From positions 22,107,652 to 22,171,651 of the forward strand of contig CM055613.1 of NCBI GenBank assembly GCA_029379385.1: DNA of 64,000 bases, read 5' to 3'. Below, piece by piece: positions 1 through 61,360 of this stretch (within the stretch, counting starts at the first letter, position 1; each line of letters starts with the position of its first letter). The position numbers and the translations under genes are program-made. The notes beneath the pieces are model-generated. The model made no database searches. It was not told where the DNA came from and was given only the letters and a program-made list of their open reading frames with translations. This stretch comes from Quillaja saponaria. Lineage: Eukaryota > Streptophyta > Magnoliopsida > Fabales > Quillajaceae.

Positions 1-2387
1 TATCACTCCAATCCCACTTCACTCCCTTTCTAGTTAGTGGAATAGCAATTTGTGAGAACCCTTAGATAAATCTTCTATAATAGCCTGCCAACCCTAAAAA
101 ACTTCTGATTTTAGTGACATTAGTTGGCACTTCCCGCTTCAAAACTGCTACTTCCTTTCTTGGATCAACTGCAACACCTTTACCACTAATCATATTCCTC
201 GAAAATACTACTTCATCCAACCAAAAATCACATTTCCCCAACTTAGCATACAACTGCTTATCTTTAAAGTTTGTAGCACTATCCTTAAATGGTTTTCATG
301 TTCCTATACACTCTTAGAATAAATTAGAATATCATCTATGAATATTATCACAGACTAATCAAGGCAGGGTCTGAACACCCTATTCATCAAGTCCATAAAC
401 ACTACAAGTACATTAGTTACTTTAAAAGGCATTACCACAAATTCAAAGTGGCCATACCTTTTCCTAAAAGCTATTTTAGGAATATCTTCAAACTTTACTC
501 TCAACTGGTGATATCTTGACCTTAAATCAATTTCAGAAAACATAACGGCCCCTTGAAGCTGATCTAGCAAATCATCTATTCTAGGCAGTGGATATTTGTT
601 CTTGATGGTCACTTTGTTGAGTTGCCTGTAATCAATGTAAAGCCTAAAAGTCCCATCTTTCTTCTTTACTGAAAGTACTGATACCCCCCAGGTGAAGTGC
701 TAGGTCTTATGCAACCCTTATCAAGTAGTTTCTCCAACAGCTTGTTTTTAAGTTTAGCAAGTTCCACCGGTGCTATGCTATATGGAGCTTTGGATATTGG
801 AGTAGTACTTAGCAAAGTTTCAATGGAGAATTCAACTTCGCTTTCAGGTGATAATCCAGCTTAATCATCTAGAAATACCTCGGGAGAGTCCCAGACTATA
901 GGAATTTGCTTTAACTCCTTTTTCTCTTCCTTGGTTTCAATTAATACAACTAAGTACCTAGAGCAACCTTGCCAAACCATTTTCCTAGCTTGCAAGGCTG
1001 AAAAAAGCATTGAATTAGACTTTAGTCTAGGTGTGCAATTACGAATTGGAGGAAAAGTTATCCTTCTATTTTTACAATCCAGTACTACCTGCTACTCTCC
1101 TAACCAATCCATTCCTAGTATTAAATCTAAGTCTTCCATAGGCAAGCAAACCAAATTAGGATAGCTTATCTTGTTTTGCATTTCTAGTTCCACAGTCTTG
1201 CACAAATCTTTCAGATATAGAGATTTACCTACTGGGGTTTCAACCAGCAGTCTACAAGGCATATTACATATTTCTAATCCAAGTCTCATAGCACAATCAA
1301 TATAGATAAAAGAATATGAAGCTCTAGCACAAACAAAGCAATCATTTCTTGACAAGCTAATAGACACTTCTAAGATAACATTTCTATCTTCTAGTGCCTC
1401 CTTCTAGATTAAGAAAAATACTCTGCCTGGTGCTATTAGCTTCCTTAGAATCCTCTGGTCATGTAGGTCTGGACAGATTCGAGCCATATGTCCTTCCTTT
1501 TCACATTTAAAGTAATTATTACAGCCTATTTGACAAGGCCAATCCCTATGGAATTTCCTATATCTACCACACTGTCCTTCCACCCTTGACTGTTCCCCTA
1601 TTTGCTTACCCTTATTCTACCACTGATTTTGTTTCCCATTGCCAGCTCCAGTTGCTTTTTTGTTACTTCTGTTCCTCTTAAATTCCCTAACCATACAAAT
1701 CCTCTAAGCAATTTTACTTTTTCCCACTAGTTGAGCAAAGTTGTCTATTTCTAGTGTAGCTATCTTGCCCCTCATATTAATGGGTCTGCAAGTAGGTTGA
1801 GAATATAGATAGTTCTTTAAACCTATGTTCATATCCAGCCTCACATATATTCGCTGCTTGACTTGATTAAACTCAGCCTCAAGATCTTACTTCACACTGT
1901 TAGGAAAATAAATCCTATAGAATGTCTTTTTGAAGTTATCCTAAGTCAAATCAACCTCTCTTACCATAAGTAACTTTTTTGTACTCTACCACCAATACTT
2001 AGCCTCACCTTCCAACATATACACTACCAAGATAAGTTTATCATCTTCTTCACAACCCATCACCTTAAAGATCTTTTCCAATTGATTCAACCACCTCTCA
2101 GCTATAGTATAATCACAATTCCCGAGAAAACTAGATGGGTTTGCCCTTCTAAAATAATCCATGAGTGCTCTAACTTCTCTTGGTCTAGGTTTAGGCCCCC
2201 TTGATTCTCCCATGCCTAATGCAACATTAGTTTGTGCTCCAACATTAGCAGCAGTAGTGGCTGCCAATGTAGACTCCATAGTAGCATTCTAATTTCCAAC
2301 TTGTTCCTTTATCACTCCTAACACACCTTCTAGTGTATTGAGTATACCTTCCAAAAGCTCATTTTGAGATTTCTTTTCAGGAGCCAT
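1..2387 (-). pseudogene. Ty3/gypsy element A: gag-pol remnant, runs off left edge
   Basis: Minus-strand retrotransposon polyprotein with many stops and frameshifts. Reading from 2387 leftward: a gag start (M at 2387), a gag core at about 2280-1986 containing the AERWLNQLEKIF and GEAKYWW motifs, a zinc-knuckle area near 1540-1480, a pepsin-like protease region (1367-1092), a linker with PIVWDSPEVF, and reverse transcriptase from about 830 down to 62 ([17 protein letters not shown], then FLGLAGYYRRF). The protease catalytic Asp motif is replaced (CARAS at the DTGAS position), so it cannot be active. The RNase H and integrase parts lie beyond base 1. It is homologous along its length to element B at 17.6-20.5 kb on the opposite strand. 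The domain order gag-PR-RT and the tRNA-Met primer site identify Ty3/gypsy. I cannot assign the lineage firmly; chromovirus is possible from the related B integrase tail. Confidence 0.9.
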
Positions 2388-2627
2388 CTTGGAAAGCACA
2401 CACAACACACATTCAGATTTATCTTATCACAAAATATTTTAAGACTCTTTACTATACTACATCACCTATCTAGTACATAAAATTTATCACTTACACATAA
2501 TTAACAGTTAACATTCAGTAGCAAAATAATTGAGCAAGTAACATCACAACTTAACACATACAGTACACACGATGAGTATTGGCAAGGACTCCTAAGACTC
2601 TTTCTACCCAACAATGTCCTAGACATT

Positions 2628-2639
2628 ACTCTAATACCA
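2628..2639 (-). other. Primer-binding site of element A (initiator tRNA-Met)
   Basis: On the minus strand the sequence is TGGTATTAGAGT, next to the LTR end. It matches the usual TGGTATCAGAGC complement of initiator tRNA-Met except for two changes. Element B has the unmutated form at 17380. It fixes the 3' end of the minus-strand 5' LTR at base 2644. Confidence 0.8.
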
Positions 2640-2643
2640 TAAA

Positions 2644-4201
2644 TGTAATACCTTATATCCTAAGAGGTCAATATAGTTGAAATACGTAGAGTATTAAGAT
2701 TCACGGCTAAGATTTAAATTTTTTTTTTCCATTTTGTAAGATTAGTAAAAGATTTTAGCCTTGTTAAATCATAGGATTATATACTTTAATGAGTAATTAA
2801 CCTTATTTTTCTTCTTTTTTGATGATGATAATGTTAGGCCGTGGAAAATTTTACTCTATCTATTAGTTACTAATTTTTCTATTATTCAACATACTTTCTT
2901 GAGTACTTTCTTATTATAAAAGTAGGTCCTCCCACTTCTATTCAAACTATTACACGAGTACTTTCTTATATTTATATATATATATAATGCCCTTGACTTG
3001 AGTTGTATTTCTAGTTACAATAAGAGAGCATTCATTTCTTTTATATGGTCACTTGGATAATGTAATATGTGAGAGTCACTTTATTATTATTATTAAAAGT
3101 GAACTTGATAAGTCCTACCTTGCTAATTATACTTACAAAAGTGAAATTGACTTTTCCCATATTACATCAAATTACCACCTATCAACATTTTCATTCCCAA
3201 AGTCTACCTTATAACAAAAAAATTTCTTTTTTTACTAAACAAGTACACCGAGATTACAATTATAAGTAAATTAAAGGCAAATTTAGACTAACATCGAGGC
3301 TCAACATCTTTACTTCAATTACATATGATTTAGATAATAGTTACATGAATACAAGAGACTAAGAGGTGCTTTTACATTAACACATAGGCAAACCTCCAAA
3401 AAGTTTATAACTTATATTAACATTGCAAGAACTACTACTTCAACATTAAGTAAACACAAAGGAACACCTCCATTACAAGTTTTAAACCTATTACATCCAA
3501 TGTTTCTAATTGTTTACTAAGACAAAATAATATTTTCCAGTTTCATTTGTTCCAACATAGGCCACGGGTACACCGTGGACAAAAGGGTATTCTTCATCAT
3601 TATAGTATCCCTTCCATACTTGCCAATACTCTTCCACATATTTTACATTTTCATGGTACGTCGCATAACAAACATAGAAACATTGGAATCAAAGTATAAT
3701 CATGTTTGCCAAGTATGACCCATAAAGCTATCAATTTGAACATTAAGAATTTTACAAACTGAGACAAAAATCTCAATACATTCCATATATTTGAATTTCC
3801 AACATTATTTACTTGATGCTCAGTTGCAAAAAAAGGAAATGAAAACAGAATTTGAATGCAAACCATTCTTGTAATCTAACCTATTTGTATATGTAAACCG
3901 AGACCTTCCTTCTTAAAAAAAAAGAGAACATGCATACAAAGCAACTTAACAATTAGTCTCAACTAGACATGGATCCATAACTAGGGATTTAGGCACTTCT
4001 TAGGGCCGAGACTTCTTGGGACACCACATAGCTTAGGTGAAAACCACAATTTCACAAAAACATGCAATTTCTCAATACTTCATCTGCAAAGCACATGCAT
4101 CCTCATCTAACATGCAATTTTTTAGAAGGAGTAGTATAGATGAAAAGGAAGTAGTTTTCATACTCATTTAAAAAGGATTAGTAAGGAAATACATGGAACA
4201 T
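2644..4201 (-). repeat. 5' LTR of gypsy element A (1558 bp)
   Basis: On the minus strand it begins TGTTCCATG at 4201 and ends TTACA at 2644, directly before the primer-binding site. It aligns by eye over its whole length with 15822-17375 (plus strand) and with the truncated copy at 22777-24482, at roughly nine in ten bases where I compared. It contains a short TA run around 2970-2985 in the position of the TATA-like tract of the other copies. Several spurious ORFs, such as 3651-3866, fall inside it. The matching 3' LTR lies outside the window. Confidence 0.9.
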
Positions 4202-4640
4202 GCATCTTTTGTAACCAGAATTTTCTACTTCTAACATCTTGACAATTGAATTCCTTCACTTCTCTCTCTCGGCTCCTATTTGTAGAATTTCTTTTCTTCA
4301 ATTAGGGCTTACTCATAACCCAAGCAATGTGTTCCCTAAGTGAATCCACGGCAAACTACGGTGCTCTCTTGAAATTTGGACGTGATTTAAGCCTCCATCA
4401 AAGACTTTGTTTTTCTCTCACTAACTAACTCTCTCTCTCATTGTTAAGACTTGTAGATTTTTCAAGAATGGTGAGATATGGTGACAATGAGGGCTTAAAG
4501 AGAGATATAAAATGGAAATCCCTAAAATGCCTTTCTATCGATTATTTTATATTATTTATTTTACCTAATCTCTCACTTAGCATTATTTTAATGATTATTA
4601 AGTCAGCTTATCATTACATAGGTAGATATATATATACAAC
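4202..4640. repeat. Flank shared in inverted orientation with 15401-15821
   Basis: This stretch lies between the LTR of element A and the viral leader. It is the reverse complement (diverged) of the stretch between the viral leader and the LTR of element B. It contains CT-rich runs (TCTCTC at about 4260 and 4435) and, at its right end, a short TA tract at about 4627-4637. No protein domain is recognisable; the ORF at 4441-4665 is not conserved in the other copy. Because the similarity continues to the exact LTR boundary, the flank and LTR were probably duplicated together. It may be an older transposon or host sequence into which both the LTR element and the virus were inserted. Confidence 0.75.
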
Positions 4641-5057
4641 AAATAAAGGACCGGTGAGGCCCTAAGAGTGGAAGAAGATCACGGAGGTGGTGAAGTAGGG
4701 AGTAGCAGGACCACTAAGGAGATTATGCTATGCAATGCATAAATTAAAGACAGAAATTGAAAGAGAGGAGAAGTGACGGTACTCCACACACTAATCCGAG
4801 GAAGGAAAATGCATAAATTAAAGATGAAGAAAAAGTGGTGATAGTCCGCACGCTAATCCGGGAGAAGGATATACAGAAATTAAAGACAAAAATAAAATGT
4901 CACTGATAGTATTCAAAATAGAATAATACAAGTGAAGGATAGCTCCGAAAGAATACCAAGGGAAGCTCTCAGACTAAACTTGGCTTAGAATTCTGAAATA
5001 AAAAACTTGATTGAATGAGAGATGCAACTCTCTATAAATAGAAAATTGAAATTTACT
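4641..5057 (-). promoter_or_regulatory. Endogenous pararetrovirus promoter and leader, inverted copy
   Basis: The minus strand carries the same non-coding block seen on the plus strand at 11350-11620 and 15213-15355. It has a TATA box (TATTTATAGAGAG at about 5042-5028), then a run matching the segment downstream of the plus-strand TATA, then leader sequence with loosely repeated CGGATTAGCGTG-type units. In caulimovirids the single genomic promoter lies in the large intergenic region before the leader, which fits. The left end meets a TA tract near 4637. Activity cannot be judged from sequence. Confidence 0.75.
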
Positions 5058-5924
5058 ATTGGAACCAATTTCTGATTTAAGTGGTGTAAGTTTTCAAGGC
5101 ATTAAAGCGTGTTTACCATTATACTAGAATTTATTTTTGAAAATATAAGCCATGAATGCTTATACTCACTATTTTGGAAATTTAAGACATTATACCAATT
5201 AGGTTGATAATCCCAATAATTGTAACCAATAGAATTGAACGGCTGGGAAAATTTCCGTTTTTTGAAAAGATTGATTTTCTAGATGAACGACGGATTACCT
5301 TTAGGATTTGGATTGTAGAATGTGTAATGAAATTAGCATCCAATTTTGATTTATAATGTTTGATAGCAACAGAATCACTATCAACCAAAATAAATTCATA
5401 ATACTTATGAGTTTTTGAAAGGTCTATAGGCATAAAACGCCAATTTGGTGAAAAAACCATTTAGAACTTATTAGAGATTATTAGTAAAAAAATGGGGTTC
5501 CATTTGAAGAATAGTTTAGGACTAGAGAAATTGGCACATAGAAAGATTGTGATTTTTGGGAGGAGATTGGAGGAGTTTGAGAGAGAAGTTCCTTACTTAA
5601 AGGTATCGTTGTCACTGATTAGTCTAATAGGGTGATAGCCTGAGCTAGATGTTCTTGATTAAACTGGATGTAATCTTTTGAATTGGGAGGGGCAACTAAC
5701 TTAGATTGCTTTTCGTCAGCAATGTCTGCCTAAAATTGCTTCGAAAGGACAAGAGGTTTTTGGATTGATTTCTAGATTTCTAAAAGGGTCTCTATGGGAT
5801 AGGCATAAGACTCTTTGGATTGCTTATGAGTTGATTGGCCTGAGGAATTGAATGGTCCCTCTTTGGATTGCGTTTTTGATTTTGTAGGAGGCTCCACATC
5901 TTTTTCTTTCTTTTTTCGAGACAT
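5058..5924 (-). pseudogene. Caulimovirid ORF of unknown function, N-terminal and middle part, inverted and deleted
   Basis: Minus-strand reading from an ATG at 5924 gives a Lys/Ser-rich N-terminus, several in-frame stops (for example at 5772), and then a block with KYYEFILVDSDSVAIKHYK (about 5430-5370). That block is nearly the same as the plus-strand ORF at 10264-11229. This copy has the N-terminus that the plus copy lacks. Compared with the plus copy it has lost the parts corresponding to about 10610-10865 and 10928-11352, so the coding remnant runs straight into the promoter block. I recall such ORFs of unknown function beside the polyprotein in endogenous caulimovirids (Florendovirus is the group I have in mind), but the genus is not established here. 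Confidence 0.7.
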
Positions 5925-5936
5925 ATTATCTACCTT

Positions 5937-6318
5937 GCAAGAATTCTCGAGTAAGATAATTGAGAATAGAATTGGAACTACCTTTGATGTATTCAATCTT
6001 AAAATTGATCCTTTATCTACCTTGGAAATAATTCCAATTGATTCTGATTGTGAAGAAATTCCTTTACTTTCAGAAAAATCTGTAAAAATTCATACGCAAA
6101 ATTACAATTATCTCCATCTTGGATGCGTCCAAATTACAGCAAAACCTCTAATAAGAGAAGGCTTTAACACCTCTATTCTCTTATGTCTTCGTAATTGTCG
6201 GATGACCAATTTTCATGAATATCTCTTTGGCACTGTTGATACTAGTCTCTGTAGTGGTCCGATCTATTTTGATTGTTTTCTAAACATGACAATCTCTTTA
6301 CAAGATGAAACATTTTAA
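5937..6318 (+). pseudogene. Caulimovirid movement protein (30K-type) remnant
   Basis: The plus-strand reading frame contains the conserved movement-protein core: LHLGCVQITAKPL (about 6113-6150), then GFNTSILLCLR and the SLCSGPIYFDCF block near 6246-6280. In this virus family the protein forms tubules through plasmodesmata and is the N-terminal part of the polyprotein or a separate ORF. The frame breaks at a stop at 6316, and recognisable coding continues only as fragments to about 6470. Its upstream end abuts the inverted ORF at about 5925-5937, so the native start is not preserved. An open frame reaching back to 5848 is accidental overlap with the opposite-strand ORF. Confidence 0.8.
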
Positions 6319-6439
6319 ATTCTTTAGACTTAAATGTTAAACTTTCAATTTTTAATATCAAATTTGGATCATTACCGATAGCTTTAGTCTAACGTATATA
6401 ATATAAAATAATGATATCTATTTTCACTTCAAAATCTCT

Positions 6440-7690
6440 CCAACAACGAAGAAAATGAGAAACAACAATGTTTCTAACTGATTTTTCAAAAGCAAACGTT
6501 ACTACTCTAAAATCAATTTCTTAGAAAGAAGTTAATTTTCCTGAAAATTAGACTCTTGATAAGGTAATGCCTGTTCAATATCAAAAACCCTCCTCTATTT
6601 CAGAAATTACTCAATACCCCATAGGTAAAGTAGAATTATTTTTTAATAGAACAAACAGTTAAAGAAATTTTAGATCAACTTATCAAGACTCAGCAAGAAA
6701 TTCTTGTTCGTCTAGATACTCTTGTTCTTCAATCCCTTTAATAATTCATCTTCAAGGTTTAGAAAACACATCTAGGATTTGTAGAGCTTTATACACCAAA
6801 GAAAATGATAATTAATCTAAAAAACGTCATTCTCTTACTTCATTTTTAAATGATAACCTGGAAATCAATATAATTCAAACTATTTTTTAGATTGATAAAG
6901 AATCCCTTAGAAAAGATTTTTATCAAAAAAAAAAAATAATAATAATAATACAATCTTGAAAGAACTTGGTTTTTAAAAAAAATTTACTGGTTTTAAAAGA
7001 CAAAAAATTCAAAACTTTTATCACAAATTTATGGAAAACTCGTAAAATTTATATTATGTTATTTGAATGGTTTGAAGTTTATGTAAAGGAAAAAGGTATC
7101 AATTATCCTTTCTCCAAATCCATAAATGTTAATACTCAAAAACAAGAAATCGGATAACTTATAAGGATGAAGTTATTAATTCAGTTTTTCCTCCTCATAA
7201 GTCCCTAAAAATTCCTACCCAGAATCCTACTAAAAAAATAGTTCCTGTACCAGTAATTCTTTTCAAAAATAAAATTTAACTGAAATAGTTAATTTTAAAG
7301 ACATTCAATCTCTTTATGAGCAAAATAATTATACCAATTGTTATCTTCAATCTTTCTCTGAACCCAAACCTAATCTGCAAAGTGAAAATCCTAGTTTTAC
7401 TCCTTACCAGATTCTTTCAAAAATCAAAAAAGAGTTAGGTTCTAATTCGAGATCCTCTTCTCAACATGAACTTCTTAACAAAATCTCTAAACAAATTATC
7501 CAAATAGAGAGAAATATTACTCCTGACACTCCTCAACAAACTAATTCCTCTCTTATGATTAATAATTTAAGTGATGTAAATTCTGCATCCGAACAAACTG
7601 ATGATTCTAGAAAAAATTTCAAAAAGAAATCAGTCCAATTCAAAATACCAATTAGCGAAAGCCACAAAAATTATATTATCTTAGGGCTTC
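6440..7690 (+). pseudogene. Caulimovirid polyprotein, coiled-coil and linker region
   Basis: This is degenerate plus-strand coding sequence between the movement and coat domains. A heptad-rich stretch near 6655-6725 (VKEILDQLIKTQQEILVRLD) looks like the coiled-coil linker found between movement and coat regions in related viruses. The frame is then interrupted by stops and an A-rich run (about 6930-6945). From about 7275 to 7680 a long Ser/Gln/Asn/Lys-rich frame is open again. Assignment is by position and composition; only the coiled coil is seen directly. No function should be expected. Confidence 0.55.
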
Positions 7691-7734
7691 TCCTCCTAAC
7701 TTAGTCACAAAAGAAAAACCTCAAATAATCAATA

Positions 7735-8700
7735 ATTATTTTAGTGCAAACAACATCTATGAAAAAAATATAGATGGCCAATCTGAATACAATATTCTTA
7801 ATATGTTGTAGCAAATGACTATGGTCAGTACTGCTTATAAAGTCTCTCACAATTATTCTGACTAATCTATCATTAATATTTTAATAAACGGTTTTACTAG
7901 TCAATTAAAAGGATGGTGGGATGAACACCTCATTGAAGATGAGCGAAGCCAAATAAACTTAGCAATCAAAATTTATACTAAAGGAAATCCTCTCCTTGAC
8001 GAAGAAGGAAATCAAATCCAAGATTCCGTAAATACTCTTATTTACACTATCACAAAACATTTCATCAGAGATCCGTCTATATGGCATGACAAATCTGCTG
8101 AACTCCTTTCCAATCTTAAGTGTCATACCCTTACTGACTTTAGGTGGTATAAAGATACCTTCTTCACTAGAGTCTTCTCTAGGTCTGATAATAATCAATA
8201 TTTTTGGAAATAAAAATTGCTAGCTAGTCTTCTCCGTTCTTTAGGAGACAAAGTTAGAGAAAAAAACAGAAATATTAACAATAGAATCATTCCATATGAA
8301 CAACTAATTTATAGATAGCTTTACAGCTATGTCCAGAAAGTTGCTTTAAAAATTTGTCAAGACGACAAACTACAAATACAATTAGCCAAAGAAAGATCCC
8401 TTAATCATATAGAGTTAAGAAGTTTCGGTTCTCAATACAGTTTTGATTGTCCTCAAAGTTCATCTAAACAAAAAAAGAAACATCATTCTGGCCTTCCCAA
8501 AACTTAAGAAAAATCTTTAAAAAATAAAGCTGGCAAAAGAATTTACAAACACAAAAATTATAAACATGCTCCTCAATATTTTCAAAATAAAGAAAAACCA
8601 CATGTTATCTATTTTCAATGCAACAAATCAGGTCATATTGCAAAATACTGCATAATTACAAATAAAATCAAAACTTTAAATATCGATTAAGGTCTTTTAG
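7735..8700 (+). pseudogene. Caulimovirid coat protein with zinc knuckle, decayed
   Basis: A plus-strand frame with scattered stops carries capsid-type motifs in the expected order: an FTSQLKGWWDEHL block (about 7891-7930), a TLIYTITKHFIRDPS block (about 8033-8075), the DFRWYKDTFF block (about 8137-8165), and the conserved PYEQLIY near 8293-8315. A basic stretch (8465-8560) leads into a zinc knuckle at about 8610-8650. The knuckle has lost its first cysteine: it reads YFQC-x4-H-x4-C instead of CxxC-x4-H-x4-C. The protein would package viral RNA/DNA. The minus-strand ORF at 7959-8198 is a shadow of this region. Confidence 0.8.
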
Positions 8701-9560
8701 CTCAACTTGATTGTCTTCTAATTGAAGATTCTTCTGATAGTGAAGCTCAATCTTTTTATGATATTTACAAAATTAACCAAATCGAAAATGATGGCGAAAC
8801 CTCTTCAGATTCATCTCTAGAAACTCTTGAATGTAATGTCCTCATTAGAGAACAAGATCTTCTCTTTGAAGTCATTACTAGCCTTTCAAATGATAAAGAG
8901 AAGACAAATTATCTTCTCAAACTCAAAAAAACCCTGAAAATCCCAGAAAAATCAAACAGACATCCTTACAATCTTCCAATAGTTACTAACTCTTTTAATC
9001 TAATTGTCGTTTTATCCATGTTCAACTCTGAGAAAAAACCTGTAACACTTTAAGATCTTCAACATTAAGTTTCAAAACTAAAAACTAAAGTCAAATATCT
9101 CAAAATTCAACAACAAGAAAATACTTCAGCAATCCAACTCCTTCAAAAAGAGAAGAAAAGAGAAGAAAAATCTATTTTTAAGACATTCTCATCAAAACAT
9201 TATGAGTCTTCCTCGTCAGATGAAAACTAAGATATTTCGAGTAATAATTTTCTTAATCTAATGACTCGGGTTTCATATTAGAAATGGTACATCCCAATCA
9301 AACTATAAATCATTTGTGGGTAAATAAAGCAATGTTCAAAAAGGCTATGGGTCAAACCGTTTCCTTCCCTTTCTTTAAAAACCTACTTTTAGGAATTTCA
9401 ATCTTATTGAAAATAAACAAAAACAAATCAATTTTTTTTCTGATGAAATTTTCTTTCAAAAGAATAGAAACTCAACTCAATGATCCAAGTGTCAAAAACA
9501 AAATAAAAATTTTTGAAGAAAAAATTCATAAGCAAATCTGCTCTGATCTTCCAAATGCTT
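8700..9560 (+). pseudogene. Caulimovirid polyprotein, acidic segment; protease domain not recognisable
   Basis: After the zinc knuckle comes an acidic Asp/Ser-rich segment (8700-8870) and a Lys-rich coiled-coil-like segment (about 9060-9180). An aspartic protease should follow before the reverse transcriptase. Near 9275-9560 only a short fragment resembling the start (KWYIPI) and AT-rich non-matching frames are seen, and no D-T/S-G motif could be found. The protease is therefore deleted or too decayed to see. The ORF at 9284-9565 has no domain I recognise and may be partly the protease C-terminal linker. Confidence 0.5.
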
Positions 9561-10300
9561 TCTGAAAAAGAAAACAACATATGGTAGATCCTTCTTATGA
9601 AAAAGAATTTTATGAAATACAAATTCCTACAAAAGCCCTTTCAATACAAATGAATCAAAAATTTCTTGATTTCTGTCAAAAAGAAACTAGTGATATTCTT
9701 TTCAAAGGAATAATCCGCAAGAGCAAAGGTCATTGGTCTTGTTTTGCTTTTTATGTAAATAAAAATGCAGAGATTGAAAGTGGTACTCCCCGTTGATTCA
9801 TCAATTATAAACCTCTCAATCAAGCTTTACAATGGATTAGGTATCATATTCCTAACAAAAAAGATATTCTCAATCATTTATACTCTTCAAAATTGTTTTC
9901 AAAATTTGATCTAAAATCAGGTTTCTGGCAAATTCAAATCAAAGAATCTAATAGATACAAAACTATATTTATAAGTTCCTTTTGGTCAATACGAATGGAA
10001 TGCAATGCCTTTTAGATTAAAAAATGCTCCTTTTGAATTCCAAATAATCATAAACAATATTTTTAATCCTTATGCCAAAATCATCATTGTTTATATTGAT
10101 GATGTTTTAATCTTCTCACAAAATGTTGATGAACATTTCAAATATCTCAATATTTTCTTTGAAATTACAAAAGAAAATAGTTTGGCTGTTTCTAGAACAA
10201 AATTCAGTCTTTTTCAAATAACAATAAAGTTTCTTGGTCATAACATTCACCACGGAACTATCAAATGGTTTCTTTGCCAAATTAGCATTTTATGCCTATA
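9561..10300 (+). pseudogene. Caulimovirid reverse transcriptase remnant lacking RNase H
   Basis: Plus-strand frames give the pararetrovirus RT signature in order: GIIRKSKGHWSCFAFYV (about 9703-9755), a NYKPLNQAL block (about 9805), the FSKFDLKSGFWQIQI block (about 9898), MPFRLKNAPFEFQ (10005), the catalytic YIDD at 10092-10103 followed by VLIFS, and FLGHNI near 10231. The catalytic box is intact, but stops and a frameshift (about 9794 and 9960-9990) break the frame. RNase H normally follows directly. Here the sequence passes within a few codons of HGTI into the unknown ORF at 10264, so RNase H is absent. Confidence 0.88.
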
Positions 10301-11229: not shown

Positions 11230-11239
11230 AAACAGTTGA

Positions 11240-12813: not shown

Positions 12814-12873
12814 TAACACCCTAATGCTCTGAAACCATAATTGTAACACCCTAATGCTCTGATACAATAATTG
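12814..12873 (-). repeat. Duplicated 30 bp LTR-end plus primer-binding-site unit
   Basis: Two 30 bp direct copies (12814-12843 and 12844-12873) each read, on the minus strand, as an LTR end (GTGTTA or GTGTCA) followed by a spacer and a tRNA-Met primer-site-like sequence (TTGTATCAGAGC or TGGTTTCAGAGC). They sit exactly between LTR E and viral leader sequence and are repeated in each 600 bp unit. This is an unusual end for an LTR insertion and suggests slippage or template switching during reverse transcription or integration. Confidence 0.75.
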
Positions 12874-15212
12874 TGACACCCTATTTCCCTAATCCTTTAC
12901 TTAATCTACTAAATAAATTCTTAAGCCAATTTAATCAGTAATACTTTTGTTACTTGTATTTTCTAACATCTTTATTTTCTACATGATACTTGTATAATTT
13001 TTCTTAGACCTTCTTATTTCACTTTACACCATACGACCATGATTACTAATCTTGTGTTCCTCTTTCTAAATTTTATCTTTTCTTCCAATTAACTTTAAGT
13101 CCATGCTACTCTATTTATTAACCAAGATTTACCTAAGAAATGTAACTTGTGAACCATGGGTTATTATTTCTAAAGACACAATTTGCAAATTATTATTTAT
13201 ACAAGAGCTAATTTTAGTAATGCTAGGCTTCCTTCCAATATTAATAAAATTACTAAGTAAACTTGTTAAGAACACATTACAACTTTATACAAAAGCAACT
13301 CCATACTACATAATTACATTTTCACACAAGTACTTTTATGTTTTTCCAAACAAGGTCCACTTGCCATCTTTTCCCATTACATAGACCATGCTTTTCTCCA
13401 AGAAAAACAATACACATTCATGGTACTAATTAATCTTCACATCAAGATGAAGAAAAGTGAGTCGAACCTTAACAAGTATTCATACATAACGATGAAGGAT
13501 TCTTGATGGCAGTTTTAAAAATTTAGGAATATGCAATACAAATTAGCCTTTTTCTTCATTTACTCAAAGTTTCCTAAAAGGGATTCATCTTCCTCATTTT
13601 CCATTTCATATGCATGAAGGATGTAAGAGTAGCATGAAGAATATAAGAGTAACAAGGAGGTAGCTTTCAAAGCAAAAATAAAATAAAACAATTGAATGCA
13701 TAAATACTTGCCTAATACCCTTAATGTTTGTTTTCTTTCTTTATTTCCCTTTATTCCTTCTCTTCCCTTTTTCCTCTTAGTTTCTTCTCTTCTTTTCTCC
13801 TACGATTTTACCCTTTCTTTCCTCCTAGTTCACGTTTTGCCTTTTCTTTGATTTCTCACTATTTCTCTCACTTTCTTTGTTTCCTCACTTTTTCTTTCAC
13901 TTTCTCTCATTTTAGTGCACACTTACCTTGCCTATGCATTTCGGTCACCACCCCCTCCTATTTATAATGTGTGGCCAAGGTTTAGGATTTAGAAGAAAGT
14001 TTTGTTTTCTATTTTACCTTTTTAGTTCTCTAAAATTACAACCACCTACTTGTTATTCTCTAAATTAACATGTGTTCTTTCTTCCTAACACTTGTCTACC
14101 TCTTATTCCCTAGTTTAGATTCTTTAATTATTAGTAAGCCACCTAGTTACCTTAAATCTCTACACATGCCTTATTAATCATTCCATGTACACCTTGCTTC
14201 CTCAAATCTCTACACATATTCACCATAATCATTTCATGGACACCTTGTCACCTTAATTCCCTATACATGTTCTACTTAATCATTTCATGGACACCTTGTT
14301 TCCTTAATTCTCTACACATATCCTACTTAATTATTTCATAGACACCTAGTGTTTTCCTTACCTTCCACTTGTCTAGTAATCTTTCTATATTGATTATTAC
14401 TTGTCATTTTATGTCCTAACTTTCTTTCACATGCCCTTAGTTATTACAACTTTTTCACCATTTTCCTCCTTCTTACAACCAAGCCCTTTCATTAATTGCA
14501 AGTTTCCATACTTATTCTCCTTCTTACACCTAAGTCCCTTCATTAATTGTAAATTGTCACACTTAATTATTTCATGGACACCTAGTGTTTTCCTTGTCTT
14601 CCACTTGTCTAGCAATCTTTCTATATTAATTATTACTTGCCATTTTATGTCCTAACTTTCTTTCACATGCCCCTTAGTTATTACAACTTTTCCACCCTTT
14701 TCCTCCTTCTTACAACCAAGCCCTTTCATTAATTGCAAGTTTCCATACTTATTCTCCTTCTTACACCTAAGTCCTTTCATTAATTGCAAATTGCCACACT
14801 TATTCTCCTTACACCTAGCCCCTTCATTTATTACAAATTGCCACATTTAATTTTCTTCTTACACTTAATTCATCACATTTCCTTTTCTAGCAAGAAACCT
14901 ATATTTTCTCTTTTTTTTCTTCTTCTTCCAACGCCACATGTAACATTTTTCCATCTTTGTTCCAATGCCTATACTTGTCCATGTTTTTATACATATATAC
15001 ATGTATGTATACGTATATACGTACATGTATTTATACATATTTTTAAACATATATACTATTCTTATACTAATACATATTTTTATATGTATTTTATACGTAC
15101 ATGAACTATTCCTATACATGAAATAATATGTAATAAATTTTTATCTTATTTAACTCATAAGATAATTACTTATCTTATAATTAATTTAGGTATTAATTTT
15201 GGGGGTGTTACA
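12872..15212 (-). repeat. LTR E (2341 bp) of a gypsy-type element, in the viral leader
   Basis: The plus strand reads TGTGACACCC at the left end and GGGTGTTACA at the right end, the inverted termini of a TG...CA LTR. A tRNA-Met primer site on the minus strand adjoins the left end, so the LTR is minus-oriented. A promoter-like TATAAATAG lies on the minus strand at 13966-13958. No coding domain is attached; the internal region is missing apart from the short primer-site units. A ~236 bp tandem duplication lies within it. The open frames inside (13103-13384, 13728-13967, 14401-15119) are low-complexity and not credible genes. A clear target-site duplication was not found. Confidence 0.82.
14326..14800. 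repeat. ~236 bp tandem duplication inside LTR E
   Basis: The stretch beginning GACACCTAGTG at 14341 recurs at 14577, an offset of 236 bp, with scattered substitutions. Shorter repeats of a TTAATTGCAAATTG/CATACTTATTCTCC theme continue to about 14840. The block lies in the U3 part of the minus-oriented LTR, where repeated promoter or enhancer modules are common. Confidence 0.8.
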
Positions 15213-15352
15213 ACCACTACTTCTCCTCCCTTTCAATTTTTGTCTTTAATTTATGCATTGCATAGCATAATCCCCTTAGTAGTCCTGTTGCTCCCTACTT
15301 CACTACCTCCGTGATCTTTCTCCTCTCTTAAGGCCTCACAGGTCCTTTATTT

Positions 15353-15355
<3 letters not shown>
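15213..15355 (+). other. Remaining viral leader to the right of LTR E
   Basis: This ~140 bp corresponds, inverted, to 4641-4785 at the left end of the virus. It contains a TTATGCATTGCATAGCATAA stretch and continues the repeated CACTTCTCCTCCCTTTC theme of the leader. LTR E separates it from the rest of the leader at 12810. It ends at the TA microsatellite. Confidence 0.65.

Positions 15356-15400
<45 letters not shown>
15356..15400. repeat. TA dinucleotide microsatellite at the virus/flank junction
   Basis: About 22 uninterrupted TA units separate viral leader from the flank shared with element A's side. A shorter TA tract occupies the mirror position at about 4627-4637. Endogenous caulimovirids have been reported at TA-rich simple repeats in several plant genomes, so this is the likely integration junction. 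Confidence 0.85.
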
Positions 15401-15403
<3 letters not shown>

Positions 15404-15821
15404 CTATGTAATGATAAGCTGACTTAATAATCATTAAAATAATGCTAAGTGGGAGATTAGATAAAACTAGATAATTTAAAATAATCGATGGAAAGGCATT
15501 TTAGGGATTTCCATTTTATATCTCTCTTTAAGCCCTCATCGTCACCATATCTCACCATTCTTGAAAAATCTGCAAGTCTTAGCCGGGCGAGAGAGAGTTA
15601 GTGAGAGAAAAATAGAGTCTTGGATAGAGGCTTAAATCACGTCCAAATTTCAAGAGATCACCATATTTCATCGTGGATTCACTTAGGGAACACATTGCTT
15701 GGGTTATAAGTAAGCCCTAATTGAAGAAAAGAAATTCTACAAATAGGAGCCGAGAGAGAGAAGTGAAGGAATTCAATTGTCAAGTTGTAAGAAGTAGAAA
15801 ATTCCTTTTATAAAAGAGGTA
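15401..15821. repeat. Flank shared in inverted orientation with 4202-4640
   Basis: The sequence from TACCTATGTAATGATAAGC to the base before the LTR matches the left flank in inverted orientation, with small differences, right up to the LTR boundary (AGAGGTA here, AGATGCA there). It holds GAGAGAGAG runs and no convincing protein. It is absent upstream of the 3' LTR of element B, so it is not part of the LTR. Confidence 0.75.
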
Positions 15822-17375
15822 TGTTCCATGTATTTCCTTACTAATCCTTTTTGAATGAGTATGAAAACTACTTTTTTAATCTATACTACTCCTTCTAAAA
15901 ATTGCACATTTGATGAGGATGCATGGGCTTTGCCGTGACTTGAAGTGTTGAGAAATTGCATTGTTTTTGCCAAATTGTGGTTTTGATATAAGCTATGTGG
16001 GGGCCCAAGAAGTGTCGGCCCCAAAAAGTCCTGGCCCCAAGAAGTGCCTAACCCCTAGTTATGGATCCTTGTCTAGATAAGACTAATTGTTAAGTTACTT
16101 TGTATGCATGTTCTATTTGTTTTTAAGGATGAAGGTTACAAGAATGGTTAGCATTGAAATTCTGTTTGCATTTCCTTTTTCTGTTAACTGAGCATCAAGT
16201 AAACAATTTTGGAAATTCAAATAAATGGAATGTATTAAGATTTTTGTCTCATAGTTTGTAAAATTCTTGATGTTAAGATTGATAGCTTTATGGGTCATAC
16301 TTGGCAAACATGATTACACTTTGCTACTAATGTTTCTATGTTTGTTATGCGACATACTATGAAGATGTAAAATATATAGAAGAGTATTGGCAAGTGTGGA
16401 AGGGATACTATAATGATGAAGAATACCCTTTGTCCATGGTGTACCCGCTATGTTGGAACAAATGAAGCTAGAAAACGTTATTTTCTCTTAGTAAACAATT
16501 AGGAACATTGGATGTAATATGTTTTAAACTTGTAATGGAGGTGTTCCTTTATGTTTACTTAATGTTTAAGTAGTAGTTCTTACAATGTCAATATAAGTTG
16601 TAAACTTTTGGAGGTTTGCCTATATGTTAAAGTAAAGGCACCTTTTAGTATCTTGTACTCATGTAACTATTATCTAAATCATATGTAATGGAAGTAGAGA
16701 GGCCGAGCCTCCATGTTAGTCTAAATTTTCCTTTAATTTACTTATAATGTAAGAATTGTAATCTCGGTGTACTTGTTTAGTAAAAAAAGGAAATTTTTTT
16801 GTTATAAGGTAGACTTTGGGACTGAAAATGTTGATAGGTGGTAATTTAATACAATGGGAAAAGTCAATTTCACTTCTATAAGTTTAATTAGCAAGGTAGG
16901 ACTTATCAAGTTCACTTTTAATAATAATAATAAAGTGACTCTCACATATTACACTATCCAAGTGACCATATAAAAGAAATGAATGCACTCTTATCGTAAT
17001 TAGAAATACAACTCAAGTTAAGGGCATTGTATATATATATATATAAATATAAGAAAGTACTTGTGTAATAGTTTGAATAGAAGTGGGAGGACCTACTTTT
17101 ATAATAAGAAAATACTTAAGAAAGTATGTTGAATAATATAAAAATTAGTAACTAATAGTTAGAGTAAAATTTTCCATAGCCTAACATTATCATTATCAAA
17201 AAAGAAGAAAAATAAGGTTAATTATTCATTAAAGTATATAAATTCTATGATTTAACAAGGCTAAAATCTTTTACTAATCTTACAAAATGGAAAAAAATAA
17301 ATTTAATCTTATCTGTGAATCTTAATACTATACATATTTCAACTATATTGACCTCCTAGGATATAAGGTATTACA
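15822..17375 (+). repeat. 5' LTR of gypsy element B (1554 bp)
   Basis: It starts TGTTCCATG at 15822 and ends TTACA at 17375, five bases before an intact primer-binding site. A TA-rich tract with TATAAATA at about 17040 is a plausible core promoter; the duplicate LTRs have the same tract. It is homologous to the minus-strand LTR of element A and to the 3' LTR at 22777. The ORF at 16113-16307 on the minus strand is not conserved and is not a gene. Confidence 0.92.
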
Positions 17376-17379
17376 TTTA

Positions 17380-17391
17380 TGGTATCAGAGC
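17380..17391 (+). other. Primer-binding site of element B (initiator tRNA-Met)
   Basis: TGGTATCAGAGC is exactly complementary to the 3' end of plant initiator tRNA-Met. It primes minus-strand synthesis, defines the end of the 5' LTR, and sets the element's orientation. Confidence 0.95.
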
Positions 17392-17628
17392 AATGTCTAG
17401 GACATTGCTAGGTAGAGAGAGTCTTAGGAGTCCTTGCCAATACTCATCGTGTGTACTGTATCTGTTAAGTTATGATGTTACTTGCTCAATTATTTTGCTA
17501 CTAAATGTTAACTGTTAATTGTGAGTAAGTGATAAATTTTATGTACTAGATAGGTGATGTATAGTAAAGAGTCTTAAAATATTCTATAATGAGATAAATC
17601 TGAAGGTGTGTTATGTGTGCTTTCCAAG

Positions 17629-18600
17629 ATGGATCTTGAAATGAAATCTCAAAATGAGCTTTTGGAAGGTATACTCAATACACTAGAAGGTGTGTCAGGA
17701 GTAATAAGGGAACAAGTTGGAAATTGGAATGCTGCTGTGGAGTCTACATTGGCAAGCACTGCTATTGCCAATGCTGCAACATAAACTAATGTTGCATTAG
17801 GCATGGGAAAACCAAGGGGACCTAAACCTAGACTAAGAGAAGTTGGTGCACTCATGTATTATTTCAGAAGGGCAAACCCACCTAGTTTCTTGGGGAATTG
17901 TGATTATACTATAGCTGAGAGGTGGTTGAATCAATTGGAAAAGATCTTTAAGGTGATGGGCTGTGAAGAAGATGATAAACTTATCTTGGTAGTGTATATG
18001 TTGGAAGATTAGGTTGAGTATTAGTGGCAGAGTACAAAAAAGTTACTTATGGCAAGAGAGATTAATTTGACTTGGGATAACTTCAAAGAGACATTCCATA
18101 GGATTTATTTTCGTAACAGTGTGAAGCAAGATCTTGAGGCTGAATTTAATCAAGTCAAGTAGGGAATATATGTGTGGCTGAATATGAACATAGGTTTGAA
18201 GAACTATCTAAGTTCTCAACCTACTTGCAGACCCATTATGATGATAGGTGGAAAGCTAATAAGTTTCAAAAGGATTTGAATCGTAATGTGAGGGGGCAAG
18301 ATAGCTACACTAGAAATAGACAACTTTGCTCAACTAGTGGGAAAAAGTAAAATTACTAAGAGGATTTGTATGGTTAGGGAATTTGACAGGAACAGAAGTA
18401 ACAAAAAAGCAACTGGAGCTGGAAATGGGAAACAAAATCAGTGGTAGAATAAGGGTAAGCAAATAGGGGAACAGTCAAGGATGGAAGGACAGTGGTAGAT
18501 ATGGGAAATTCCATGGGGATCAGCCTTGTCAAATGGGTAGTAATAATTACTTTAAATGTGGGAAGATAGGACATATAGCTTGATTTTGTCTAAACCTAAA
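17629..18600 (+). pseudogene. Element B gag (capsid and zinc knuckle), decayed
   Basis: It begins with an ATG at 17629 giving a coiled-coil-like N-terminus (SQNELLEGILNTLEG). A stop follows after 51 codons (TAA at 17782-17784), and the frame reopens with GKPRGPKP. The capsid core has FLGNCDYTIAERWLNQLEKIFKVMGCEEDDKL in two adjoining parts (about 17890-17985). A stop at 18010 and frameshifts follow, through LTWDNFKETFHRIYF (about 18070-18115). The zinc knuckle near 18545-18590 reads YFKC-G-x3-H-x4-C with a stop inside it; the first Cys is Tyr, as in element A. Confidence 0.88.
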
Positions 18601-18689
18601 TGACCAGAGGATTCCAAGGAAGCTAATAGCACCAGGCAGAGTATTTTCCTTAATCTAGAAGGAGGCACCAGAAGATAGGAAAGTTATCT

Positions 18690-18971
18690 TGGAAGTGTCT
18701 ATTAGCTGGTCAGGAAGTGATTACTTTGTTTGATGCTGGAGCTTCACATTTTTTTATCTCTGTTGATTGTGCTAAGAGACTTGGATTAGAAATATGTAAT
18801 ATGCCTTGTAAACTGCTGGTTGAAACCCCAGCAGGTAAATCTCTATGTGTGAATGATTTATGCAAGATTGTGGAACTAGAAATGCAAAACAGGCTAAGCT
18901 ATCCTAATTTGGTTTGCTTGCCTATGGAAGACTTAGATTTAATACTAGGAATAGATTGGTTAGGAGAGTAG
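18690..18971 (+). pseudogene. Element B aspartic protease region
   Basis: The frame shows LFDAGASHFFIS, with the catalytic Asp at 18732-18734 in a DAGAS version of the usual D-T/S-G-A-S. It then shows CAKRLGLE, and the family's second half LPMEDLDLILGIDWLGE (about 18918-18968), the flap and C-terminal hydrophobic motif of retropepsins. Unlike the copy in element A, the catalytic Asp is kept. A stop (TAG) closes the frame right after GE. In an intact element this would be continuous with RT. Confidence 0.85.
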
Positions 18972-19019
18972 CAGGCAGTACTGGATTGTAAAAATAGAAG
19001 AATAATTTTTCCTCCAATT

Positions 19020-20070
19020 CTTAGTTGCACACCTAGACTAACATCTAATTCAATGCTTATTTTGGCCTTGCAAGCTAGGAAAATGGTTTGGCAAGGTTGT
19101 TCCATGTACTTAGCTGTATTAATTGAAACCAAGGAAGAGAAAAAGGAGTTAAAGCAAATTCCTATAGTCAGAGACTCTCTCAAGGTATTTGCAGATGATC
19201 AAGCTGGATTACCACCCAAAAGAGAAGTTGAATTCTCCATTGAAACTTTGCTAGTTACTACCCCAATATCCAAGGTTCCATATAGGATAGCACCTATGGA
19301 ACTTGCTAAACTTAAAAAGCTGTTGGAGAAACTACTTGATAAGGGTTACATAAGACCTAGCACTTTACCTGGGGGCATCAGTACTTTTTGTAAAGAAGAA
19401 GGATGGGACTTTTAGGCTTTGAATTGATTACAGGAAACTTAACAAAGTGACCATTAAGAACAAATATCCACTGCCTAGAATAGATGATTTGCTAGATCAA
19501 CTTCAAGGGGCTATTCTTTTTTTCTAAAATTGATTTAAGGTCAGGATATCACCAGTTGAGAGTAAAGTCTGAAGATATTCCTAAAACAGTTTTTAGGACA
19601 AGGTATGGCCATTTTGAATTTGTGGTAATGCCTTTTAGAGTAACTAATGCACCTGCAGTGTTTATGGACTTGATGCATAGGGTGTTCAGACTCTACCTTA
19701 ATCGGTCTGAGATAATATTCATAGATGATATTCTAATTTATTCTAAGAGTGTATAGGAACATGAAAACCATTTGAGGGCAGTGCTACAAACTTTAAAGAT
19801 AAGCAATTGTATGCCAAGCTAGGGAAATGTGATTTTCGGTTAGATGAAATAGTATTTTTGAGGCATATGATTAATGGTAAAGGTGTTGCAGCTAATCCGA
19901 GAAAGGTAGAAGTAGTTTTGAAGTAGGAAGTACCGACTAATATCACTAAAATTAGAAGTTTTCTAGGGTTGGCAGGCTAGTATAGAAGAGTTTAACTAGA
20001 AAGGGTTCTCACAAATTGCTATTCCACTAACTAGATTAACTAGAAAGGGAGTGAAGTGGGATTTGAATGA
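19020..20070 (+). pseudogene. Element B reverse transcriptase, frameshifted
   Basis: Linker with PIVRDSLKVFADD, then LLDKGYIRPSTLPGG (about 19328-19375). Next come a frameshift and stop, LCIDYRKLN-type sequence near 19420, [17 protein letters not shown] (about 19460), [20 protein letters not shown] (about 19590-19655), and catalytic FIDD at 19718-19729 followed by ILIYS. The thumb and connection follow (KCDFRLDEIVF, SFLGLAG near 19955). At least four stops or frameshifts separate these pieces. The enzyme would copy retrotransposon RNA into DNA; this copy cannot make a full protein. Confidence 0.9.
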
Positions 20071-20095
20071 AAGTTGTTGAAAGAGTTATGAGAAA

Positions 20096-20560
20096 TTGAA
20101 GAAAAGACCAACCACTGCACCTGTTTTGATTATACCAGATCCTAAAGAGAAATGCATAGTATACAATGATGCTTCTAAAAGGGGATTAGGTTGTGTGCTT
20201 ATGCAACAAGGAAAAATGGTAGCTTATGCTTCTAGACAGTTGAGGCCAAATGAAGAACATTACCTTACACATGATTTTCAACTTGCTATAGTTGTGTTTA
20301 AGGTATATACTGATCATAAAAGGCTAAAATACTTATTTGATAAAAAAGAATTAAACATTAGACAAAGGAGTTGGTTAGAATTCTTGAAGAACTTTAAATG
20401 TGAATCGAAGTATCATCCTGGAAAGGTCAATGTAGTGGTACATGCACTTAGCTGGAAGTCAGGTCATATGGCTAAGCTAATGATCCAAGAGTACAAGTTG
20501 TTAGAAGAATTTAGAGATTCAAGGTGTCAATCGTTTGAAATAAAGCTTGAAATAGCATAA
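20096..20560 (+). pseudogene. Element B RNase H domain with internal deletion
   Basis: An open frame of 154 codons covers the Ty3/gypsy RNase H-like domain: [14 protein letters not shown] (catalytic Asp in NDAS), [56 protein letters not shown] and a degraded HALSWK (normally ADALSR). The segment between IVVF and KVYTDHK is shorter than usual; about fifteen residues around the usual WRHYL motif are missing. After VVHALS the frame enters the integrase spacer and is then cut by the insertion at about 20560. Confidence 0.88.
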
Positions 20561-22438: not shown

Positions 22439-22776
22439 TTGAAAATACTGGTCATCACAAGCTTGGACCAAGATATGTGGGACCATATGAAATCTTAGAA
22501 AGAATTGGAGCTACAACCTATAAATTAGCCTTACCCCCAAAACTTAGTCAAAGTGCATGATGTTTTTCATGTTTCACAACTCATAAAATATAAACCTAGC
22601 TTTGAACACATTCTAGAATATGAACCTCAAAGAATAGAAAGCAACCTTAAAACAAAAGCTAAACCAACGATAATAGTGGCTAGGAAAACAAAATTCTCGA
22701 AAGGGCAAATGATTCCATTGGTGAAAGTAGCTTGGAAAGGCTATATAAAGAAGGATGCAGCTTGGGAAAAAAGGTA
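22439..22776 (+). pseudogene. Element B integrase C-terminus (GPY and chromo-like end) and polypurine tract
   Basis: The frame reads HHKLGPRYVGPYEILERIGATTYKLALPP, the GPY/F module of Ty3/gypsy integrases. After a one-base shift near 22540 it reads VHDVFHVSQLIKYKPS (22555), a linker, and IPLVKVAWKGYIKKDAAWE (about 22715-22770), the degenerate chromodomain-like tail. The coding end runs into a polypurine tract (GGGAAAAAAGG, 22764-22774) that primes plus-strand DNA synthesis and marks the start of the 3' LTR. Confidence 0.88.
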
Positions 22777-24482
22777 TGTTCAATGTATTTCTTTACCCTT
22801 TTTGATCGAGTTTGAAAACTACTTCTTTTTATCTATACTACTCCTCCTGAAAAAATTGCATGTTTGATAAGGATGCATGTGCTTTACCGTGAGATGAAGT
22901 ATTGAGAAATTGTATGCTTTTGCCAAATTATGGTTTTGACATAAGCTATATGATGGCCCAAGAAATCCCGGCCCCAAGAAGTGCCTAAACCCCTAGTTAT
23001 GGATCCATATCTAGATGAGACCAATTGTTAAGTTGTTTTGTATGCATGTTCTTTTTTTTTTTAAGGAGGGAGGTCTTGGTTTACACATATGCAAAGGGGT
23101 TAGACTACAAGAATGACTTGCATTGAAATTCTGTTTTCATTTGCCAAATTATGGTTTTGACATAAGCTATATGATGGCCCAAGAAATCCCGGCCCCAAGA
23201 AGTGCCTAAACCCCTAGTTATGGATCCATATCTAGATGAGACCAATTGTTAAGTTGTTTTGTATGCATGTTCTTTTTTTTTTTAAGGAGGGAGGTCTTGG
23301 TTTACACATATGCAAAGGGGTTAGACTACAAGAAGGACTTGCATTGAAATTCTGTTTTCATTTCCCTTTTCTGTTAACTGAGCATCAAGTAAACAGTTTT
23401 GGAAATTTAAATATATTGAGATTTTTGTCTCACGGTTTGTAAAATTCTTGATGTTCAGATTGATAGCTTTACGGGTCTTACTTGGCAAACATGATTATAC
23501 TTTGGTTCCAATGTTTCTGTGTGTGTTATGCGACCTACTATGTGGATGTAAAATATGTAGAACAGTATTGGCAAGGGTGGAAGGGATACTCTAATGATGA
23601 AGAATACCCTTTGTCCACGGTGTACCATGGCCTTTGTTGGAATAAATGAAGCTAGAAAACCTTAATTTGTCTTAGTGAACAATTAGGAACATTGGATGTA
23701 ATATGTTTAAAACTTGTAATGGATGTGTTCCTTTGTGTTTACTTAATGTTTAAGTAGTAGTTCTTACAATGTTAATATAAGTTGTAAACTTTTGGTGGTT
23801 TGCCTATGTGTTAATGTAAAGGCACATGTTAGTATCTTGTACTCATGTAACTATTATCTAAATCATCTATAATAGAAGTAGGGAGGCTGAGCCTCCATGT
23901 TAAGTCTAAATTTGCCTTTAATTTACTTATAATGTAAGAATTGTAGTCTCAGTGTGCATGTTTAGTAAAAAATGAAATTTTTTTGATAAAAAGTAGACTT
24001 TTGGAATGAAAATGTTGATAAGTGGTAATTTGATGTAATATAGGAAAAGTCAATTTTACTTCTACAGTACAATTGGCAAGATAGGACTTATCAAGTTCAC
24101 TTTTAATAATAATAACAAAGTGACTCTTACATATTACATTATCCAAGTGACTGTATAAAAGAAATGAATGCCTCTTATTTTAATTAGAAATACAACTCAA
24201 GTCAAGGGACTTGTATATATATATATATATATATATAAGAAAGTACTCATGTAATTGTTTGAATATAAGTGGGAGGACCTACTTTTATTATAAAGTACTT
24301 AAGAAAGTATGTTGAATAATAGAAAAATTAGTAACTAATAGTTAGAGTAAAATTTCCCATGGCCTAACATTAACATCATCAAAAAAGAAGAAAAATAAGT
24401 TTAGTTACTCATTAAAGTATATAAATCCTATGATTTAACAAGGCTTGAATCTTTTACTAATCTTACAAAATGGAAAAAAATA
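22777..24482 (+). repeat. 3' LTR of gypsy element B, truncated at its 3' end
   Basis: It starts TGTTCAATG after the polypurine tract and follows the 5' LTR to about 24482. There roughly the last 95 bases are missing and a different LTR (D) begins soon after. It includes a 221 bp tandem duplication. A TATATATA tract at about 24212-24236 matches the promoter position of the 5' LTR. The small ORFs in it have no support. Confidence 0.9.
22921..23362 (+). repeat. 221 bp near-perfect tandem duplication within the 3' LTR
   Basis: 22921-23141 and 23142-23362 are direct copies differing, as far as I can see, at one base (GAATGACTTG versus GAAGGACTTG); even the run of 11 T is the same length. The 5' LTR has a single copy. 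The duplication is therefore much younger than the LTR pair. Confidence 0.92.
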
Positions 24483-24519
24483 ATCTTTAAAGTCTTATAT
24501 CTAATGCACAGAGTATCGA

Positions 24520-43640: not shown

Positions 43641-43735
43641 TAACTTATATCCATAAATGCCTCCCCATTACTCTGGAGTCCCACATTTTTGAAGGTGGCA
43701 GTGCACATCATCTCGCTAGCTAGGCGGTGAGAGAC

Positions 43736-61357: not shown

Positions 61358-61360
61358 AAA

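Follow-up and report, generated by a model that had tools for sequence, protein, structure and literature searches.

How did an endogenous pararetrovirus come to lie at the centre of a large inverted repeat whose two arms carry the same retrotransposon? The question is raised by a stretch of 64,000 nucleotides of the Quillaja saponaria genome (C9:22107652-22171651 of the assembly; contig CM055613.1 of GCA_029379385.1), referred to here as the window. In it, pieces of a caulimovirid stand head to head between two inverted copies of a (TA)n tract, a host flank of about 420 bp and a Ty3/gypsy element with long terminal repeats (LTRs). A first-pass annotation had read the whole, virus included, as a single ancestral locus copied in inverted orientation. 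The host part of that reading holds, as the arms are a local inverted duplication of one ancestral locus, (TA)n-flank-LTR-gag-pol. The viral part is not borne out in that form, since the two viral halves have little or no derived history in common and the virus-(TA)n junction is a recurrent one. As an answer we tentatively propose a chromosome repair in which captured viral DNA folded back and mirrored its host neighbour.

Structure of the inverted arms

Self-BLASTN of the whole window aligned positions 3-4774 with 15219-20070 in inverted orientation (4906 columns, 88.6% identity), which confirms the large inverted duplication; nearer the centre the inverted matches are shorter, and viral. From the centre outward, the left arm consists of a (TA)n tract at the virus-host junction (4626..4639, read from the sequence) followed on the minus strand by the host flank (4195..4625, found again by a genome search with 4195-4600), a 5' LTR (2644..4194) and the gag-pol region (1..2643). 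The latter was recognised by its inverted alignment to the right arm, by a zinc knuckle (PF00098, at its cut-off) and by reverse transcriptase (RT) fragments (PF00078) on open pieces, and it extends leftward past the window. The right arm, on the plus strand, has a (TA)n tract of 22.5 copies (15355..15399), the flank (15400..15817, by three-way alignment and genome search), a 5' LTR (15818..17375) with a perfect tRNA-Met primer site just behind it at 17380, and gag-protease-RT-RNase H (17376..20558; PF08284, PF00078, PF17917). The order of parts is shared by the two sides, as the first-pass annotation had it, but the viral parts are asymmetric, with different segments kept on each.

Homology between the arms ends at window position 20558. 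The right element resumes at the C-terminus of pol (22450..24498, plus strand, start placed by eye), where a weak chromodomain match was obtained (PF24626 and PF00385, both below cut-off), and continues into a 3' LTR from about 22780 that is truncated before its end. The left arm does run out of the window, as had been claimed: in the sequence to the left (L031) the inverted copy continues for about 525 bp (matching window 20558-20073), and farther left the arm retains a reading frame that by eye resembles integrase and of which no counterpart was seen in the right arm. Its outer end was placed by eye at about L031:8430, and no matching 3' LTR for the left element was seen in the 40 kb left of the window. 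Together the arms carry the hallmarks of a Ty3/gypsy LTR retrotransposon, i.e. LTRs, a tRNA primer site, gag-protease-RT-RNase H and integrase (the last in the left arm only, by eye).

The inverted duplication postdates the LTR insertion

A three-way alignment of the LTRs showed that the left copy and the right 5' copy stay alike past the LTR edge into the flank and the (TA)n tract, while the right 3' LTR lacks that flank and diverges at the edge. Similarity of the arms through the LTR boundary, on which the first-pass annotation had built its case, is therefore real, and two independent LTR insertions are rejected because arm homology crosses the LTR edge. In the 352-Mb genome the flank has two full-length copies, one in each arm, which are 91% identical (all six candidates scored); elsewhere, the query 4195-4600 gave four short weak matches only. 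The LTR has three close copies, all within the window, and among the best 40 of 184 candidates scored the matches elsewhere reach at most 72% over at least 300 bp, apart from a few pieces of 58-72 bp at 82-83%. As the flank is found in full only in the two arms and the LTR copies are local, the arms are a local inverted duplication; a dispersed composite repeat, in which virus, flank and LTR would move as a unit, is rejected.

Over the 1411 columns common to the three LTRs, the Kimura two-parameter (K2P) distance is 0.076 between the left and right 5' LTRs, 0.099 between the left and right 3' LTRs, and 0.104 between the right element's own pair. The first distance was smaller than the last in 99.95% of 2000 bootstraps. 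Since the left and right 5' LTRs are closer to each other than the two LTRs of the right element, the element inserted before the duplication, which therefore postdates the LTR insertion.

The viral pieces belong to a dispersed family

The virus is a caulimovirid, as judged by its movement protein. Open viral pieces match PF01107 (movement protein, 2.3e-12), PF24925 (unknown function, 1.5e-9) and PF00078 (RT, 3.8e-18), with the caulimovirus coat domain PF22909 below cut-off at 0.045; no protease was detected in these profile matches. A search of the genome across the joint between RT and the second open reading frame (ORF2) gave at least 42 matches (best 40 of 671 candidates scored), and the virus is a member of a dispersed, florendovirus-like family with many decayed copies. 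Other searches yielded no confirmed relative of the RT piece in viral_contigs, no match of the movement-protein piece in the protein database at E 0.001, and no Rfam match at gathering scores.

The left viral piece (4640..6006, minus strand) comprises the leader end, promoter/leader, ORF2 and the C-terminus of RNase H, the last recognised by eye. After the RNase H end comes, as read by eye, an ORF2-like piece in a different frame, which has 24 relatives, including Cajanus and Glycine proteins, none of them named viral. Two stretches between ORF2 and leader that are present in the right arm are missing here. The right viral piece, all on the plus strand, begins with an unduplicated spacer (6007..10262) that holds the movement protein, the coat region and a stop-broken RT, and goes on to the ORF2 tail and downstream region (10263..11107); no RNase H was found in it. 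All 11 dispersed copies that were fetched have the counterpart of 6006-5119 (minus strand) as continuous viral sequence, which leads directly into the counterpart of the stretch from 10260 on. In ten of them, the region 6006-5463 is preceded by RT and then by 454-603 bp that are missing from the window. The near-identical copies L039 and L040 were counted separately here, as in the rare-state and RT codon counts below. To judge from these copies, the left viral piece is thus an unbroken RNase H end-ORF2 segment, and the right piece lost RNase H and the 5' part of ORF2 by a deletion at 10261/10263. A viral junction at 5462/5463 was dropped from consideration for the same continuity of 6006-5119, and alternative splicing at the RT-ORF2 joint was considered but is not needed.

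The first-pass annotation was also right that later insertions lengthened the right arm. Three tandem copies of about 600 bp of the viral promoter/leader, together with the edge of an inserted LTR, form a young triplication (11108..12910, plus strand; 97.8-98.8% between copies). They are followed by that foreign LTR with adjacent primer-site-like repeats (12873..15212, minus strand), which is absent from the left arm; tRNA-Met-like sites with one mismatch each lie at 12867 and 12837 on the minus strand. Beyond it comes the right viral leader end (15219..15353, plus strand), identified by alignment and by reading of the leader end. An LTR related to the foreign one, with CTAGT on both sides, lies left of the window at L031:4245-6451; the one in the window is inserted in the viral leader.

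A recurrent virus-(TA)n junction

The leader end was legible in 28 rows, which stand for 26 distinct places, and it runs into (TA)n in 19 of these 26, as counted from the printed rows, many of which had been picked by similarity to a query that included the (TA)n tract. Seven of these 19 have the same TTGGTATATAT joint as the right arm, and the host sequence beyond the joint differs from copy to copy. Two dispersed copies (L017 and L044) continue past the leader end into a tRNA-Met site, TGGTATCAGAGC, before which both window arms stop. As the leader-(TA)n joint recurs across the genome with other host flanks, an equal joint on both arms is what the mechanism leads one to expect and is no evidence for common descent, whereas the flank can be. 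The shared viral order had been taken as a sign that the viral insertion was copied along; with this recurrence, and with so little shared between the viral halves, that argument is not supported as it stood.

Little shared history between the viral halves

The left and right viral halves have 2 rare states in common in 704 columns, which places them at rank 62 of 339 pairs. The background of 333 pairs, scaled to 704 columns, has a mean of 0.95, and 17% of these pairs reach at least 2, while three pairs grouped in the tree described below have 8, 15 and 25 rare states in common. The left viral piece shares more with the dispersed copy L017 (4 rare states in 457 columns) than with the right arm. 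Likewise, a search with the right ORF2 tail places the left arm 21st among the 40 scored matches, self included (best 40 of 208 candidates), with 18 dispersed copies higher and one tie. These comparisons indicate that any history shared by the viral halves would thus be short or absent, and the halves probably parted at about the time when the virus integrated.

Compared with the right arm or with 10 copies, the left ORF2 piece has no excess of differences at third codon positions, nor is there one in RT, where the summed differences of the right arm from 12 copies number 152, 96 and 143 at first, second and third positions, respectively. Given this lack of third-position enrichment, most of the viral divergence looks like decay after integration.

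A proposed single repair event and its rivals

The head-to-head viral junction lies at about 5992..6006. According to alignments with dispersed copies, movement-protein homology of L051 begins at 5992, and RNase H/ORF2 homology of five of six copies stops at 6005-6006, which leaves a short stretch similar to both pieces, a possible imperfect microhomology. Together with the unduplicated viral spacer between the inverted arms, this gives the locus a fold-back-like structure. Caulimovirid DNA is thought to enter as filler at (TA)n breaks (PMC10377300; PMC4241990), although the integration mechanism is called speculative in the first of these, a review. Fold-back-like structure and published filler capture together lead us to favour, if at less than even odds, one old chromosome repair, in which a break occurred at (TA)n, viral DNA was joined and folded back, and the host neighbour was mirrored. 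The stricter claim that virus capture and inverted duplication were one event, a one-ended viral joining at the (TA)n break followed by fold-back synthesis, is more doubtful and perhaps unlikely; the fold-back and its coincidence with capture are steps that we infer from the repair model.

In this proposal the Ty3/gypsy element would first have inserted at a distance of about 420 bp from a (TA)n tract. The tract would then have broken and been repaired with viral DNA, which was attached through its leader (tRNA-Met) end. More or less simultaneously, the other, free end of that DNA, which lay in the movement-protein region, would have folded back and paired with a short inverted similarity close to the end of RNase H. 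From there, repair synthesis would have copied ORF2-promoter-leader-TA-flank-LTR-gag-pol in inverted orientation. The new copy would have been joined within pol to the other side of the break. Both arms would since have decayed, the right one gaining the foreign LTR, the promoter triplication and deletions.

Several observations weigh against this proposal. The viral halves differ at 89 of 742 sites and the host and LTR parts at 363 of 4530 (Fisher p 0.00065; transversions alone, p 0.14), so that a simultaneous origin would need viral change about 1.5 times faster or later homogenising of the outer arms. If viral DNA did change about 1.5 times faster than the arms, capture and duplication would both be later than the LTR insertion and close together in time. 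In RT, second codon positions differ less often (96), and some divergence may accordingly precede integration. The similarity at the head-to-head junction is imperfect and its limits shift by copy, to 5919 (L048; 6026 by BLAST), 5935 (L052) or 6066 (L038). At the left outer joint, the left outer end and the right pol end, compared directly, were no more alike than shuffled sequences. Finally, the promoter and leader-end segments of the two arms are each other's nearest rows, and in a concatenated tree of 775 columns and 26 rows the two arms group together (unstarred support 93/76; branch 0.0095), so some shared viral history is possible. This tree comprises the two arms and 24 dispersed copies, which are best matches to window pieces and not a random sample; it leaves out L011, L023 and L026, whose places coincide or overlap with others, and any row in which at most one of the three segments was present. 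In simulations with a branch of 0.0095, two or fewer shared states were obtained at a probability of 0.019, and with a branch of at least 0.02 at under 0.001; the background assumed for them was 0.9, and 0.95 was measured afterwards.

The most serious rival is that the break was filled by two separate viral molecules joined head to head, which either entered an inverted duplication that already existed and met at (TA)n, or were captured during fusion of two broken sister ends. It would explain why the viral halves resemble two independent family members and why both outer ends lie at a leader-TA joint known from other copies, and it draws on the same published idea of filler capture at (TA)n (PMC10377300; PMC4241990). 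Nevertheless, it requires two viral molecules where one suffices and, if the duplication came first, the host arms should look older than the viral decay, yet they look younger, unless viral DNA changes faster. We regard it as unlikely, but as a contender to be taken seriously.

The plain version of the first-pass annotation, in which the virus had long been resident when its insertion, together with flank and gypsy element, underwent inverted duplication, is improbable. The equal outward order, the nearest-row signs in promoter and leader end and the weak joint tree branch speak for it, and for the ORF2 tail alone a sisterhood of left and right is not rejected (p-AU 0.354). At equal rates, however, branch lengths would lead one to expect about 20 shared derived viral states where 2 are seen, the viral divergence exceeds that of the host parts, and many dispersed copies outscore the left arm against the right ORF2 tail.

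Slightly harder still to credit is an early duplication of virus and flank, after which gene conversion kept flank, LTR and gag-pol alike, while insertions and deletions prevented pairing in the viral centre and so left it to diverge. The divergence between the arms does fall from the ORF2 tail (0.131) through promoter/leader (0.120) and leader end (0.095) to the flank (0.074) and LTR (0.073), as such conversion would predict, but it rises again in gag-pol (0.085), and along window 1-4780 it is even, without clear patchiness (20 bins, chi-square p 0.09). An assembly artefact, i.e. two haplotypes or paralogous contigs joined in inverted orientation, is very improbable, because the window is free of N and is part of a 26.5-Mb contig, 104 kb of which were examined and had no N, the arms are 8% apart with private insertions, and there is no third full flank copy.

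Inverted viral joints are found elsewhere too: in the dispersed copy L044, a piece of the coat region is reversed just past the leader end (L044:3269-3445).

Comparison with known systems

One close likeness is with the endogenous florendoviruses (Caulimoviridae; PMC4241990), with which the virus has in common the movement protein, RT, an ORF2-like order, the tRNA-Met site, (TA)n junctions and many decayed copies. The tRNA-Met primer site at the leader end was found in the dispersed copies L017 and L044, and the (TA)n association in the 19 of 26 places given above. Of the ORF1 parts, movement protein and RT match above cut-off and the coat domain below it. The window copy differs in being rearranged head to head, and the likeness is one of features.

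Three other systems, as they are described in the sources cited, resemble the locus in part. The inverted-repeat caulimovirid loci of tomato (TSAs; via the review PMC10377300) are likewise rearranged caulimovirids with inverted repeats; the arms of the window differ in being mainly host flank and gypsy element, with elements facing outward, and are known from sequence alone. In endogenous banana streak virus loci (same review), viral fragments are duplicated in both orientations beside a Ty3/gypsy element, which is proposed as the carrier, whereas here the element predates the duplication and was copied with its flank. Human fold-back inverted duplications (PMC3907307) likewise have inverted arms with an unduplicated spacer between them, and a short inverted similarity where they join; the window differs in its viral spacer and short internal duplication. 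At title and abstract level, with most subscription papers outside that scope, we found no report of a caulimovirid flanked by inverted copies of a host flank and an LTR element.

Hairpin RNA and significance

According to the review (PMC10377300, section 3.5), inverted-repeat caulimovirid loci give 22-nt small interfering RNAs (siRNAs) in tomato, and inverted repeats derived from caulimovirids and transposable elements give 22-nt siRNAs in soybean. The first-pass annotation had suggested a comparable role for this locus. Between the compared arm segments there are 63 perfect runs of at least 21 bp, 7 of them viral. Judged by the orientation of the elements, however, viral and LTR transcription on both arms would be directed away from the centre, so that the arm transcripts would be of the same sense and would not pair; a hairpin would need read-through of the roughly 10.8 kb between the two flanks. 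A hairpin-RNA role is not favoured, because the elements of both arms appear to point outward, and no present function or antiviral action of the locus is indicated by its sequence.

If virus capture and inverted duplication were indeed one event, endogenous viruses could directly found long inverted repeats, the raw material of hairpin-RNA loci. With its LTR clock, a flank that is complete nowhere else in the genome and a large family of sister copies, the locus allows a test of the sequence in which the LTR element inserted, the virus was captured and the inverted duplication arose. It also holds a caution for this virus family: as the virus-host junction recurs, its equality on two arms is no proof of common descent.

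Other features of the window

An inverted pair of about 750 bp with 72% identity is formed by 25743-26479 and 29339-30046. A host reading frame at 43724-44071 encodes a small plant protein of unknown role, and related proteins occur in many flowering plants; among the 120 of 158 rows listed these are nearly all eudicot, the best named one being from Cicer arietinum (76%). Finally, a satellite-like tandem array with a period of about 168 bp occupies 61357-62793 (8.6 copies, 77% matches).

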